Shown: piece after piece, positions 2,977 through 7,142 of the stretch
Layout of the letters: the number at the start of each line of letters is the position of its first letter
Numbering within the stretch: position 1 is the stretch's first letter
Origin: Actinomycetes bacterium
GTDB taxonomy: Bacteria > Actinomycetota > Thermoleophilia > Solirubrobacterales > Solirubrobacteraceae
DNA: 35,095 nt
NCBI GenBank assembly: GCA_021846845.1
Contig: JAJZWB010000027.1
Span: 1 to 35,095, forward strand
Reading direction: 5' to 3'
Notes under the pieces: generated by a model
The model's input: the letters and a program-made list of their open reading frames with translations, nothing else
What the model was told of the DNA's origin: nothing
Database searches by the model: none
Position numbers and translations under genes: made by a program

Positions 2977-3097
2977 CGCCCGGCGGCACGATCCGGGCGG
3001 TCTCGACCGTGCCGACGACCTGTGTCGGCGGCTCGATCAGTCGTAGCCCGGCTCGCCCGGCAGCACGATCCGGGCGGTCTCGCCCGTGCCGACGACC
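2977..3097. repeat. 44-bp direct duplication of the Nudix gene 3' end
   Basis: Bases 3054-3097, inside the last codons of the Nudix gene, recur at 2977-3020 just beyond its stop with two mismatches in 44 (offset 77). The copied part encodes [14 protein letters not shown] in the gene. Confidence 0.85.
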
Positions 3098-3663
3098 CGT
3101 GGCTGAACGGGCTTCACCGTCCGACCGCGCGCGTAGTCGAGCAGCTGCGCCGCCGAGCCGAAGCGGTCCAGCTGTTGCAGGTGCTTGATCGTGGGAAACA
3201 CGAGCAGGATCTCGCCCCGGCGGGCGGCGGCCAGCGCCCCTGACGGCGTGAACCAGCGCACGTCGATCATCTCCGAGCCGTCGATCCGCGGCTCGGCGTC
3301 GGGCGGAGCACACGCGAGGAAGAACCAGGTGTCGAAGCGGATCCTGACGGCCGCCGGCGTGATCCAGTGGGAGAAGGCGACGATCTCGCCCGGATCTGGG
3401 AGCAGGACCCCGGCCTCCTCGTCAAGCTCCCGCACCGCGGCTGCGCGCAGGCCGTGCTCGCCTTCCCCGTCGCCCTCGCTGACGGCCCCTCCCGGGAACA
3501 CCCACGCGCCGCCCATGAAGCGGGCCGCGGGGTTGCGCTGCGCAAGCAGCACCTCGAGTCCGCCGTCGCCGTCACGCAGGAGGATCACGGTCGCCGCCGG
3601 CCGGGGGACCGTCTCAGGGCCGTCGTGGAGGTGCTCGCCGGGCCCTGGCCGTACGCCATCCAT
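3037..3663 (-). CDS. Nudix hydrolase
   Basis: This 208-residue cytoplasmic protein has a Nudix signature: GGAWVFPGG at 51-59, then RELDEEAGV at 78-86 carrying the metal-binding glutamates E79, E82 and E83. The loop between the glycines and the RE motif is expanded relative to the standard GX5EX7RE spacing, as in NUDT19-like CoA/nucleotide hydrolases. A WITP segment (about 113-116) and a C-terminal helical region (FPTIKHL at 163-169) also fit that subgroup. The substrate (nucleoside diphosphate derivative or acyl-CoA) cannot be decided from sequence; the nearby acyl-CoA genes make CoA derivatives plausible. It diverges from rubredoxin over 63 bp. The ATG at 3663 lies 6 bases after a TAGGGT box, supporting this start. 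Confidence 0.85.
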
Positions 3664-3669
3664 GCTCTG

Positions 3670-3675
3670 ACCCTA
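3670..3675 (-). promoter_or_regulatory. putative -10 box of the Nudix gene (leaderless arrangement)
   Basis: TAGGGT on the minus strand ends 6 bases before the ATG at 3663, placing the expected transcription start at the start codon. Confidence 0.5.
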
Positions 3676-3711
3676 CAACCCGGCGAGGTCATCGGCGGCG
3701 CGCGGGACCGC

Positions 3712-3717
3712 TACCCT
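3712..3717 (+). promoter_or_regulatory. putative -10 box of the rubredoxin gene (leaderless arrangement)
   Basis: TACCCT ends 9 bases before the ATG at 3727; there is no ribosome-binding sequence between them. Confidence 0.5.
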
Positions 3718-3726
3718 AGTCGCCCG

Positions 3727-3888
3727 ATGAGATACGTGTGCGAATCGTGCGGGTTCATCTACGACCCTGAGATCGGCGATCCCGACGGCGGCATCCCGCC
3801 CGGAACGGCGTTCGAGGACATCCCGGACACCTGGTTCTGTCCGGTGTGCGGCGCGCGCAAGCGGGATTTCGTCCCGTACGACGCCTAG
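3727..3888 (+). CDS. rubredoxin
   Basis: This 53-residue protein is the normal length of a single-domain rubredoxin. Two CxxC knuckles bind one iron: [12 protein letters not shown] (C5, C8) and [13 protein letters not shown] (C38, C41). The conserved [15 protein letters not shown] stretch lies between them. Rubredoxins are one-electron carriers for alkane hydroxylases, rubrerythrins and related oxidases. No such partner is adjacent, so its electron acceptor is unknown. The gene is divergent from the Nudix hydrolase and convergent with the pseudo-aminotransferase, from which it is separated by 195 bp (3889-4083) in which I see no gene or clear terminator. Confidence 0.95.
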
Positions 3889-4083
3889 GCGTCCGGACAC
3901 ACCTGGCGCCTGACTTCCGGGCCGCGGCGCGTACCCGTGATGGATGCGATGTCAACCACGGTCATGGGTGAGCGTCGCCTCGCGCCAGGTCGCCGCGGCA
4001 GCGCGGCCTTTCCCCGGTCGCGCGATCACCCCGCCGAGACCGTGCGACCTCGGAGACGGTCACCGCGAGCCGGAACGGGCGGC

Positions 4084-5379
4084 TCACGCTGCGCGCCGGG
4101 TCCGTTTGGGCGCCTCGTGGTCGAAGACGCCCGCGGCTGCCTTCGCCCGCGATGCGCCGTGCTGCTGTTCGGCGCCTGCGCGATGCCAGTCCGCCGGCGC
4201 GTCGGCAGCGGCCTGCGGCTGGTGGCCGAGTGCGCGCGCCACGCTCCCGAGCCGGCGCGCGGCGTCGTCCAGTTCCCCCGGATGATGGGTCGCCATCGCA
4301 GTGAGTCGCAGCCGCGCGACCGGGTTCGCGACCAGCGGCGGCAGCAGCGAGTCGATGAACAACCCGTGCCGGAGGGCCTGCTCGCAGATCGCGGCGGCGA
4401 GCCTGGGATCATGGACCGGCGGCGCCATGATGTGGGAGCGCGACGCGCCGGTGTCGAACCCCTCCCGCTCGAGCCCGCTGCGGAGGGCAGACGCGTTGAC
4501 CGCGAGCCTGCGAACCCGCTCCGGCCGCTCGCGCAGGAGCTCGAGGGCCGCCAGAGCGCCGGCCACCGCGGGCGGCGGGAGGGCGGTGGATGCGGCGAAC
4601 GCCCGTGCGGCGGAGACCAGGTAGCGACCCATGTCGCGATCGCACGCGACGAATGCGCCGTAGGCGCCGAGCGCCGAGCCGAGCGTTCCCGTGATCACGT
4701 CCACGTGGTCCTCGAGACCGCCGGCGGCGAGCGCCCCTCTCCCGTCGGGCCCGATCGCACCGAAGGCGCTGGACTCGTCGACCACGGTTCGGATCCCGAC
4801 GCGCTGAGCCAGCGTCGCGATCTCACGCAGCGGCGCGAGATCGCCGTCGAGGGAGAACACGGACTCGGTCACGATCAGCGCGGCCCGACCCTCGGCCTGC
4901 TCTATGCCCCACGTGAGGTGCTCGACGTCGTGGTGGTCGTACACGAACACGTCGGCTCGCGACAGTCGGCAGCCGTCGACCAGCGCCGGGTGGTTGAGCT
5001 CGTCGGAGAAGATCGTGTCCCCGGGTCTCGCCAGGGCAGCGATCACGCCCGCGGTGGCGGCCTCGCGTGAGCCGAGCAGGAGCGCGGTCTCGCGTCCGAC
5101 GAACTCGGCCAGGCTCTCCTCGGCACGGCGATGGATCGTCATCGTGCCCGACGCCAGGCGTGGTGCGCCGGCTCCCACGCCCCAGCGCACAGCCGCGTCG
5201 GCGGCGGCCTCCCGGACACGCGGGTGATCGGCCAGGCCGAGGCAGTTGTCCGAGCACAGAAGCAGGACGGGCTTGCCGTCCAGCACCACGTGGGGTCCCT
5301 GCGGGCCGCTCACCAGACGGGTGCGACGCTGAAGGCCGAGGGCCTTCAGTTCGTCCAGCCGCGCTTGGATCTGGATCAT
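4084..5379 (-). CDS. BioF/KBL-family (alpha-oxoamine synthase fold) protein lacking the PLP lysine
   Basis: This 431-residue protein aligns across its length with 8-amino-7-oxononanoate synthase/glycine C-acetyltransferase proteins. Retained landmarks are LADHPRVREAA (49-59), SDELNHPALVDGCRLSRA (125-142, including ring-stacking H130), VTESVFSLDGDLAPL (170-184) and GPDGRG (210-215). Several cofactor-site motifs are changed. The lysine of the usual TLGKALG is serine (TLGSALG, S235; codon TCG). DEAHxTG is DESSAFG (D201 kept, His to S204). The SGYxAN loop is SREAAT (104-109). NNYLGL is DNCLGL. The frame is intact with no stop or shift. Known: the lysine forms the Schiff base with PLP and is needed for catalysis. 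Inference: a catalytically altered or dead paralogue, possibly regulatory or scaffolding. The ATG at 5379 follows a TATGGT box by 9 bases; the frame is open further upstream but lacks support there. Confidence 0.85.
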   Translation of the reverse strand: MIQIQARLDELKALGLQRRTRLVSGPQGPHVVLDGKPVLLLCSDNCLGLADHPRVREAAADAAVRWGVGAGAPRLASGTMTIHRRAEESLAEFVGRETALLLGSREAATAGVIAALARPGDTIFSDELNHPALVDGCRLSRADVFVYDHHDVEHLTWGIEQAEGRAALIVTESVFSLDGDLAPLREIATLAQRVGIRTVVDESSAFGAIGPDGRGALAAGGLEDHVDVITGTLGSALGAYGAFVACDRDMGRYLVSAARAFAASTALPPPAVAGALAALELLRERPERVRRLAVNASALRSGLEREGFDTGASRSHIMAPPVHDPRLAAAICEQALRHGLFIDSLLPPLVANPVARLRLTAMATHHPGELDDAARRLGSVARALGHQPQAAADAPADWHRAGAEQQHGASRAKAAAGVFDHEAPKRTRRAA

Positions 5380-5388
5380 GGCGGACCC

Positions 5389-5394
5389 ACCATA
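5389..5394 (-). promoter_or_regulatory. putative -10 box of the pseudo-aminotransferase gene (leaderless arrangement)
   Basis: TATGGT on the minus strand ends 9 bases before the ATG at 5379. It indicates that this degenerate enzyme gene still has an expression signal. Confidence 0.5.
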
Positions 5395-5430
5395 GGGACG
5401 GCGTCGGACAGATCGTGCGCATGGTGACCA

Positions 5431-5538
5431 GGATGCTGTCCGACAGCTGGCCCGGCGTCCGACCCGGGCGGCCGGTCGCCGCGCCGGATGCTGTCCGACA
5501 GCTGGCCCGGCGTCCGACCCGGGCGGCCGGTCGCCGCG
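5431..5538. repeat. two identical 53-bp direct repeats upstream of the HhH-GPD gene
   Basis: Bases 5431-5483 and 5486-5538 are identical over 53 bp, separated by 2 bp. Each contains the small inverted repeat CTGTC-C-GACAG. They lie in the 186-bp divergent region between 5379 and 5566, immediately upstream of the likely promoter of the next gene. They could be doubled operator sites or a slippage product. Confidence 0.95.
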
Positions 5539-5553
5539 GAGCCGGATCCGATC

Positions 5554-5559
5554 TATGAT
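5554..5559 (+). promoter_or_regulatory. putative -10 box of the HhH-GPD gene (leaderless arrangement)
   Basis: TATGAT, five of six matching TATAAT, ends 6 bases before the GTG at 5566. This favours the GTG over the in-frame ATG at 5488, which lies inside the direct repeat. Confidence 0.55.
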
Positions 5560-5565
5560 CGGCCG

Positions 5566-6129
5566 GTGGCCCCCGATCGCCTGCACTTCACGGACTCCGA
5601 CGAGGCCAACGCGCTGATCGCCGAGGATCCGATGGCCCTGCTGATCGGGTTCGCACTCGACCAGCAGGTCTCGGTGCAGAAGGCGTTCGCCGGCCCGCTC
5701 GCCATCCGCGAGCGGCTCGGCACGATCGATCCGGAGGCCCTTGCGGGGGCCGAACTGGAGCCCGTGTTCGCCGCCAGGCCCGCAATCCACCGATTCCCCG
5801 GCGCGATGGCCAGGCGCGTGCGGGATCTCGCCGCGCACATCTGTGACCGCTACGGCGGCGACGCGGCCCGCGTGTGGAACGACGCGTCCGACGGTGCCGA
5901 GCTGCGCGCCAACCTAGCCGCGCTTCCCGGTTTCGGCGAGATGAAGGTCAAGTCGCTGGGCGCCGTGCTGGCGAAGCGGTTCGGCGTTGCGGCGGCGCAG
6001 GATCTGGTGCCGTCGCACCCGACGCTCGGCGACGTAGACTCCGCGGAGGCTCTGGCCCAGTACCAGTCCGCCAAGCGCGCTCACAAGGCCCAGTGGATGG
6101 CGGAGGCACCGGGCGGACCCGGGCGCTAG
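5566..6129 (+). CDS. HhH-GPD family protein (TIGR03252-like)
   Basis: This 187-residue protein resembles the uncharacterised actinobacterial HhH-GPD family (TIGR03252). Visible landmarks are LLIGFALDQQVSVQKAF near the N-terminus, where base-excision glycosylases have VGQQ, and a helix-hairpin-helix-like LAALPGFGEMKVKSLGAVL in the C-terminal half. The catalytic aspartate expected some 15-20 residues after the HhH is not in the usual VD context; PSHPTLGDVDSAE occupies that place. Known: relatives include DNA N-glycosylases of the EndoIII/AlkA superfamily. Inference: a DNA-binding or repair role; activity is unproven. It is the second HhH-GPD gene in the window besides the AlkA-like one at 31078. 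Confidence 0.8.
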   Translation: MAPDRLHFTDSDEANALIAEDPMALLIGFALDQQVSVQKAFAGPLAIRERLGTIDPEALAGAELEPVFAARPAIHRFPGAMARRVRDLAAHICDRYGGDAARVWNDASDGAELRANLAALPGFGEMKVKSLGAVLAKRFGVAAAQDLVPSHPTLGDVDSAEALAQYQSAKRAHKAQWMAEAPGGPGR

Positions 6130-6151
6130 CGCGGGTCTCGGGGCGCGACGC

Positions 6152-6943
6152 TCAGCGTCCCGTCCACTGCGGAGGTCGCTTCTCCGCGAAGGCCCGGAGC
6201 CCCTCACGGAAGTCGTCAGAGCTCAGGCTGTCGACGCGCAGCGCCAGCAGCTCCCGCTCGATGGCGTCCGTCACCGTCGCACGGCCGTCAAGCAGCGCCC
6301 CGATGACGCGCTTGTTGCCGCGCTGCGCGAGCGGCGCGCGGGCCGCGATCTCCGTTGCGAGCGCGATGGCCGCCTGGGAGAGCTGATCCGTGCCGGCGAC
6401 CCGGTTCACCAGGCCCCACGCAAGCGCCGTGGCGGAGTCGATCCGGGTGGCGGTGAGGAACAGCTCACGCGTGCGCGGCCCTCCGATCGCGTCTACGAAC
6501 CTCCGGAGCCCGGTGTGCGAGTAGACCAGGCCGAGCCTGCCGGGCGGCATCCCGAAAGTCGCCGGTTCGGCGGCCACGCGCAGATCGCAGGCCAGCGCCA
6601 GCTCGAGCCCTCCGCCGATCGTGTGGCCGTTGAGCGCCGCAACGACCGGCCACGGGTGCTCGTCCAGCGCCTGAAGCGCGGTCTCGAACGGGTTCGCCAC
6701 CAGGGCTCCCGCCCGCTCGGCGACGGTTCCGTCGCCCAGGTCGCCGACGTCGTAGCCGGCGGAGAAAACGGTCCCCTCGCCGGTGAGCACAACGCACCGG
6801 GCCGTCAGCTGCGGCAGCGTGCCGGCCAGCGCGTCCAGGATCGGCCGGTCGAGCGCGCCCCGCTTCTCGGGATTGGAGATCGTCAGCCGCGCCACTCCGG
6901 GCGCGGGCTCGTCGACCAGCAGCCGTCCGCTACTCGATGACAA
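6152..6943 (-). CDS. crotonase-fold enoyl-CoA hydratase/isomerase-like protein, methylmalonyl-CoA decarboxylase-like
   Basis: This 263-residue crotonase has the oxyanion-hole segments FSAGYD (60-65) and GHTIGGGLELALACD (106-120; E114 matches crotonase E144). The second catalytic glutamate of hydratases, in FGxPE, is absent: FGMPPGRLGLVYSHTG (130-144) resembles instead the corresponding FAMTPxNLGVPYNLVG stretch of E. coli methylmalonyl-CoA decarboxylase (YgfG/ScpB), including Y141. The C-terminal LRAFAEKRPPQWTGR also fits that group. Known: YgfG decarboxylates methylmalonyl-CoA without biotin. Inference: a decarboxylase or atypical hydratase. Translation likely starts at a TTG (6943) that overlaps the end of the biotin-carrier gene by 14 bp, so the two are co-transcribed. 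Confidence 0.85.
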   Translation of the reverse strand: MSSSSGRLLVDEPAPGVARLTISNPEKRGALDRPILDALAGTLPQLTARCVVLTGEGTVFSAGYDVGDLGDGTVAERAGALVANPFETALQALDEHPWPVVAALNGHTIGGGLELALACDLRVAAEPATFGMPPGRLGLVYSHTGLRRFVDAIGGPRTRELFLTATRIDSATALAWGLVNRVAGTDQLSQAAIALATEIAARAPLAQRGNKRVIGALLDGRATVTDAIERELLALRVDSLSSDDFREGLRAFAEKRPPQWTGR

Positions 6944-7142
6944 CGAGCGGATCGCCCTCGGACACCGACTGGCCCTCGCTGCAGAGGACCTGGGTCACCA
7001 CCCCGGAGTCCTCGGCCTCGACCGGCATCTCCATCTTCATCGACTCGAGGATCACGACCGGGTCGCCCTCCTCGACGGTGTCGCCGACCTCGACCTCGAT
7101 CTTCCAAACGGTGCCCGTGATGTGGGCCTCGACCTCCGGCAA
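6930..7142 (-). CDS. small free-standing biotin/lipoyl-attachment carrier protein
   Basis: This 70-residue protein is a single biotinyl domain: EAHITGTVWKIEVEVGD at the start, the biotinylation site ESMKMEMPVEAE in the middle (second lysine-containing MKM), and GQSVSEGDPLVVIE at the end. The length and layout match free actinobacterial carriers such as M. tuberculosis TB7.3. The start is a TTG at 7142, chosen because a full AGGAGG lies 8 bases upstream; a longer frame reaches 7337 but its extra residues are not domain-like. Known: the biotin carries carboxyl groups between carboxylase or transcarboxylase active sites. The gene overlaps the decarboxylase-like crotonase, and an acyl-CoA carboxylase beta subunit lies at 19193; no biotin carboxylase gene is in the window. 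Confidence 0.9.
   Translation of the reverse strand: MPEVEAHITGTVWKIEVEVGDTVEEGDPVVILESMKMEMPVEAEDSGVVTQVLCSEGQSVSEGDPLVVIE

Follow-up and report, generated by a model that had tools for sequence, protein, structure and literature searches.

A bioF gene stranded by a dissolved biotin operon in a solirubrobacterial genome: a probable pseudoenzyme that has lost its Schiff-base lysine

Why would a bacterium without biotin synthesis keep the gene for a biotin-pathway enzyme whose active site has been taken apart? The question is raised by a bioF-derived gene on contig JAJZWB010000027.1 (hereafter the window: the whole stretch analysed, 35,095 nucleotides, contig C67 of a 3.68-Mb genome that is 95% complete and in 219 contigs), from a bacterium whose close named relatives are metagenome-assembled genomes of the Solirubrobacterales. 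This soil bacterium retains bioF in its old place with the active site dismantled, and the gene product probably serves some other purpose, one that needs no enzymatic activity.

4084 to 5379, minus strand: orphan bioF-derived probable pseudoenzyme of 431 amino acids, with an alpha-oxoamine synthase fold over residues 1 to 390 and a probably disordered C-terminal tail.

The initial annotation of this gene, whose strand is corrected here to minus, had described an intact frame and an alpha-oxoamine synthase fold from end to end, and both descriptions held. The translation runs through 431 codons without a stop, with coding-type composition (guanine plus cytosine fractions of 0.79, 0.54 and 0.87 at codon positions 1 to 3). 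Its best NCBIfam model was TIGR00858 (bioF), at 339 bits, under the 426-bit cut-off; an active sister copy scored 465 bits. The best sequence match in the PDB was 8s1y (E 6e-70), the closest solved relatives were structures of ThAOS, KBL, serine palmitoyltransferase (SPT) and BioF, and profile and PDB alignments to the BioF/KBL/SPT family covered the protein throughout. The predicted model (mean predicted local distance difference test score 88.7, with low confidence at residues 399-431) agreed, superposing on SPT, ThAOS and KBL with Z of about 50 over 388 residues (1-390) and a root-mean-square deviation of 1.6-2.0; Foldseek (E 4.5e-36, template modelling score 0.92) likewise placed it in the alpha-oxoamine synthase fold (fold-type I).

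Within this fold, five sites of the pocket for pyridoxal 5'-phosphate (PLP) and substrate are altered, all read from the alignment:

4675 to 4677, minus strand: codon 235, TCG (serine) in place of the Schiff-base lysine codon AAG, confirmed by codon reading.
4768 to 4779, minus strand: residues 201-204, DESS for DEAH, with Asp201 retained and His204 gone.
5053 to 5070, minus strand: residues 104-109, SREAAT for SGYLAN, the PLP phosphate/stacking loop.
5248 to 5250, minus strand: residue 44, aspartate for an asparagine (N44D) found without exception in the 68 bioB-linked BioFs.
4342 to 4344, minus strand: residue 346, leucine for the arginine of the IRPPT loop (R346L).

The first three had already been claimed, and alignment and codon reading bear them out; N44D and R346L are added here. 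By its position, Arg346 would correspond to the substrate-carboxylate Arg378 of SPT. His130, Asp201 and Arg358 are still present, and SDELNHPALVDG, previously taken for a surface motif, in fact carries His130, the PLP-stacking residue of the active site. The proposal that the changes cluster at the cofactor pocket was upheld: with the pocket list set from the literature by homology, 4 of 10 lesions at conserved columns fell within 9 of 105 such columns (p=0.004). A read or assembly error was considered and rejected; TCG and AAG differ at all three positions, the pocket is altered at five sites, and the sister genomes have their own variants.

The surroundings of the gene indicate where it came from. 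Same-genus genomes with an active copy share, with small variations, the order 70-aa biotin carrier, crotonase-family gene, bioB, bioF, bioD, bioA, rubredoxin and NUDIX; in the window the same flanking genes enclose bioF only.

6930 to 7142, minus strand: biotin/lipoyl carrier protein of 70 amino acids, above the NCBIfam NF004547 cut-off.
6152 to 6895, minus strand: crotonase-family protein (enoyl-CoA hydratase / methylmalonyl-CoA decarboxylase-like), the conserved upstream neighbour.
5380 to 6151: position of bioB in relatives, by synteny; filled in the window by an antisense HhH-GPD gene.
5488 to 6129, plus strand: HhH-GPD base-excision repair protein (TIGR03252), which in sister genome G011 also lies between the crotonase gene and an orphan bioF.
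3889 to 4083: position of bioD and bioA in relatives, by synteny; no trace left in the window.
3727 to 3888, plus strand: rubredoxin, conserved downstream neighbour.
3037 to 3663, minus strand: NUDIX hydrolase, conserved downstream neighbour.

Because bioF stands alone between the ancestral operon flanks, with its partners gone from the locus and not found elsewhere in the genome, the window gene is the native bioF left over from an operon that has dissolved, an origin, like the recurrence of the same event in several lineages, that goes beyond the initial annotation. A search for remnants of bioB, bioD and bioA in the window found none, the short 'bioA' matches lying antisense to the rubredoxin gene. 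The promoter-like box reported earlier could not be substantiated, as no sigma-70-like site was found in 3600-6000. The interval that separates pseudo-bioF from the HhH-GPD gene holds a perfect 55-bp tandem duplication (5431-5538), and the listed start of the HhH-GPD open reading frame falls within it.

Neither bioB, bioD nor an equivalog-level bioA was found in the window genome (95% complete), which does have a gene for the biotin transporter BioY. Since a biotin carrier gene is present at 6930-7142, the cell probably still uses biotin; the ESMKM biotinylation motif of the carrier was read from a homologue in locus L128. Across the genus, BioY is confined to genomes without an over-cut-off bioB, and the two never occur together, as if species switched between biotin synthesis and uptake. 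As judged from sequence, the window protein is a BioF orthologue by descent, yet it is without the defining BioF features tested: it shares with BioF (TIGR00858) its sequence, fold and ancestral operon position, but it scores under the cut-off, has lost Lys235, His204, the SGY loop, Asn44 and Arg346, and lies in a genome without the linked, or detectable, bioB, bioD and equivalog bioA.

Loss of this kind is not confined to the window. Native bioF was found detached from bioB in seven species of the genus, in which position 235 is serine (window), threonine (G011), methionine (G019), glycine (G022 and G023) or lysine (G018 and G007); the two that keep lysine carry other pocket lesions, including H130G and H204D in G007. 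The initial annotation had asked whether homologues all have lysine here, and it is missing from five of these seven orphans and kept in the comparison copies outside that group. In a family comparison of 89 copies (68 bioB-linked, 21 orphan), Lys235 was lost in orphans only, all 68 linked copies keeping it. At 13 pocket positions, linked copies had 0-1 lesions and orphans 4-11, and Asn44 was retained in 68 of 68 linked copies vs 2 of 21 orphans, with a lineage-specific replacement by D, S or G. As serine, threonine, methionine and glycine occupy position 235 in different species, there is no sign of a new catalytic residue shared by all.

The best tree of the 89 copies needs five transitions, only two of them forced by well-supported branches. 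When orphan state and pocket lesions were compared by independent pairs, the supported pairs were too few for significance, so the association rests on the five best-tree transitions, two of them the forced ones. Flanking genes sort the genus orphans into three groups. A single origin of all seven was not formally rejected by the approximately unbiased test (p 0.34 on protein, 0.085 on flanking genes), but flanking genes place G019 with an active species, and its orphan still adjoins bioD. By gene content G019 is a biotin producer, with a foreign bioF (51% identity) and bioA on contig C138 and bioB on C127. Beyond the genus, groups g20, g21 (three species) and g34 also have a detached native bioF, again with these flanking genes on either side. 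The relatives indicate that dead bioF copies of this kind originated repeatedly and that selection still preserves them.

The orphans of g20 and g34, two other genera (loci L230, L231, L232, L234, L239 and L240, of genomes G065, G153, G150, G066, G068 and G152), retain the lysine and have Asn44, Tyr46, Tyr106 or Asn129 altered; perhaps BioF has an altered or second function there too. An orphan of g21 (L170 / L233, genome G073) keeps the lysine and has glycine for Asp201, the pyridine-nitrogen aspartate. Genome G065 holds a complete, apparently foreign bioA-bioD-bioB-bioF cluster (L242, G065:C1:5665001-5685000) beside its orphan native bioF.

A gene that has lost its catalytic residues may be a pseudoenzyme or a pseudogene, and rates of substitution speak to the difference. 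On the branches of G022 and G023 the ratio of nonsynonymous to synonymous substitution (dN/dS, omega) was 0.067, vs 0.060 for active copies, and omega 1 was rejected (2dlnL 158); as both carry Gly235, the simplest account is that the lysine had gone before the two diverged. Their pairwise dN/dS was 0.135, vs 0.140 for an active control pair. The window branch gave 0.16, a figure that averages over the whole branch, with omega 1 again rejected (2dlnL 47.9). Codon 235 is TCG (serine) in the window and ACC (threonine) in its sister G011, which fits a threonine-to-serine path; given a lysine-less sister and compatible codons, the loss probably took place in their common ancestor, before the two split.

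The core alignment of 17 sequences contains no stops, and 385 of its 386 columns are free of gaps; when neutral evolution was simulated over the same distances, an open frame survived in 0-7% of runs. Both dN/dS estimates lie far below 1, with no stops and virtually no core indels, and together with the simulations they disfavour a long-term pseudogene. Of the two outcomes that the initial annotation named as refuting it, lysine in all homologues or dN/dS near 1 with frameshifts, neither was seen. Change is also unevenly distributed. At sites invariant in the active copies of the genus, the odds ratio for change in the pocket was 4.5, although the cells pooled for it are partly dependent on one another; pocket segments of orphans are about 1.5-5x as variable as in active copies, and residues 1-40 are more conserved. 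Catalytic residues lost under purifying selection are what distinguish a pseudoenzyme, and the earlier preference for a repurposed pseudoenzyme over a decaying gene is supported, with a putative retained function as regulator, ligand binder or partner.

The far end of the protein is conserved as well.

4087 to 4131, minus strand: tail motif GVFDHEAPKRTRRAA, common to native solirubrobacterial BioFs and kept to the last codon in 7 of 7 genus orphans.

Among 312 neighbourhood proteins this motif was confined to BioF. In native solirubrobacterial BioFs the sequence closes with a tail of low confidence, probably disordered, whose conserved last motif is roughly [FY]D.E....[RHE]AA, and foreign BioFs are without it.

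We consider it rather probable that the native bioF left behind by this operon has become a non-catalytic pseudoenzyme, whose inferred role would be that of a probably dimeric scaffold, partner or regulator. Biotin import would have made 8-amino-7-oxononanoate synthase activity superfluous, and the protein would have been retained because the native BioF of this family would also have a task independent of PLP chemistry. Its most likely form would be a BioF-like dimer serving as scaffold, binding partner or regulator, acting through its N-terminal/dimer region, which is conserved, and through the FDxE...RAA tail at the C terminus. More tentatively, and with rather less confidence, we propose for the Solirubrobacteraceae at large that native BioF has a further role, unrelated to catalysis, which persists once biotin synthesis is lost; the native gene would stay after pathway loss or replacement by a foreign bioF, its pocket would be dismantled in parallel in a number of lineages, and a lysine-less pseudoenzyme would result.

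Several points weigh against the pseudoenzyme reading. The dN/dS of the window branch is above that of active copies and therefore indicates weaker constraint; there is partial saturation of dS, and the F3x4 branch models, fitted to 385 codons, give rough values. The list of 13 pocket positions was refined after inspection of the alignment, a literature-based list giving a weaker but consistent result. Lys235 is retained in 16 of the 21 family orphans, so some of them may still bind PLP or catalyse, and orphans of different genera may have different functions. Native bioF was also unmatched, at the threshold used, in about half of 28 genus genomes, some of them incomplete; with other species lacking a match, the gene is dispensable in principle.

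That last absence is also what a decaying relic would predict, one under relaxed selection since uptake replaced synthesis and bound for deletion, as seemingly elsewhere in the genus. The operon partners are already lost, dN/dS on the window branch is raised (0.16 vs 0.06), and a stop-free frame is not unlikely if decay was confined to the last tenth of that branch, the frame then staying open in 27-53% of neutral simulations. However, the pair G022/G023 has the dN/dS of an active gene after its loss of lysine, the core is all but free of gaps, lesions are grouped in the pocket instead of scattered, and the tail is intact in every genus orphan. We regard such a relic as unlikely overall; for the window copy taken alone slow decay is the most plausible of the rivals, and decay there may have begun very recently.

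Alternatively, the protein might be the non-catalytic subunit of an active alpha-oxoamine synthase, in the manner of LCB1/SPT1 of eukaryotic serine palmitoyltransferase, which pairs with LCB2 as a heterodimer and itself has neither the lysine nor other catalytic residues (PMC6148460). The resemblance includes the fold without a Schiff-base lysine, retention by selection and a Z of 44 between the window model and 7k0i_A, and the conserved N-terminal region is, in SPT, part of the dimer interface. The initial annotation had suggested an active paralogue elsewhere in the genome: no second BioF was found, and the one further alpha-oxoamine synthase found is a distant SPT-like enzyme on contig C19 (L241, 9858-11120), not far from an apparent ABC transporter with a substrate-binding protein. 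This candidate partner is only 34% identical and unlinked to the window gene, and almost every genome of the genus, with or without an orphan bioF, has a match to its type. LCB1 has a defined active partner and a membrane context, whereas the protein described here is orthologous to BioF and has a candidate partner only, and other members of the family are homodimers; an arrangement of this kind seems improbable. Slightly less probable still is a changed enzyme that retains non-covalent binding of PLP, or binds a different ligand (an acyl-CoA, for example), and catalyses a different, lysine-independent reaction: the window protein keeps His130, Asp201 and Arg358, and most other orphans keep the lysine, aspartate and histidine with substrate-side residues such as Asn44 altered, but every one of His130, His204, Lys235, Arg346 and Arg358 is missing from one or more of the seven genus orphans, and no one replacement at 235 is common to all.

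A bacterial precedent is BioF_1 of Chlamydia, an orphan bioF-like gene kept and expressed in species deficient in biotin synthesis, a second copy beside BioF_2 for which a role in another aminotransferase reaction has been proposed; its catalytic lysine is kept, according to the legend of that paper's alignment (PMC3459881). The window bioF is likewise kept without biotin synthesis, but it is the native operon gene and its lysine is lost; neither LCB1 nor BioF_1 is a complete match for it. Literature searches limited to open-licence papers found no report of a lysine-less BioF. To our knowledge, the eukaryotic SPT complex is the main source of known lysine-less alpha-oxoamine synthases.

Here a bacterial BioF appears to have been stripped of its chemistry in several lineages while selection continued, and active, orphan and lysine-less copies stand side by side within one genus, which allows a metabolic enzyme's role besides catalysis to be asked about directly. 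The findings bear on the role of orphan BioF_1 in Chlamydia, and they warn against taking a 'bioF' label in an annotated genome as evidence that biotin is made. If native BioF does have a second function, it would provide a bacterial counterpart to LCB1, with its repeated origins as natural replicates.
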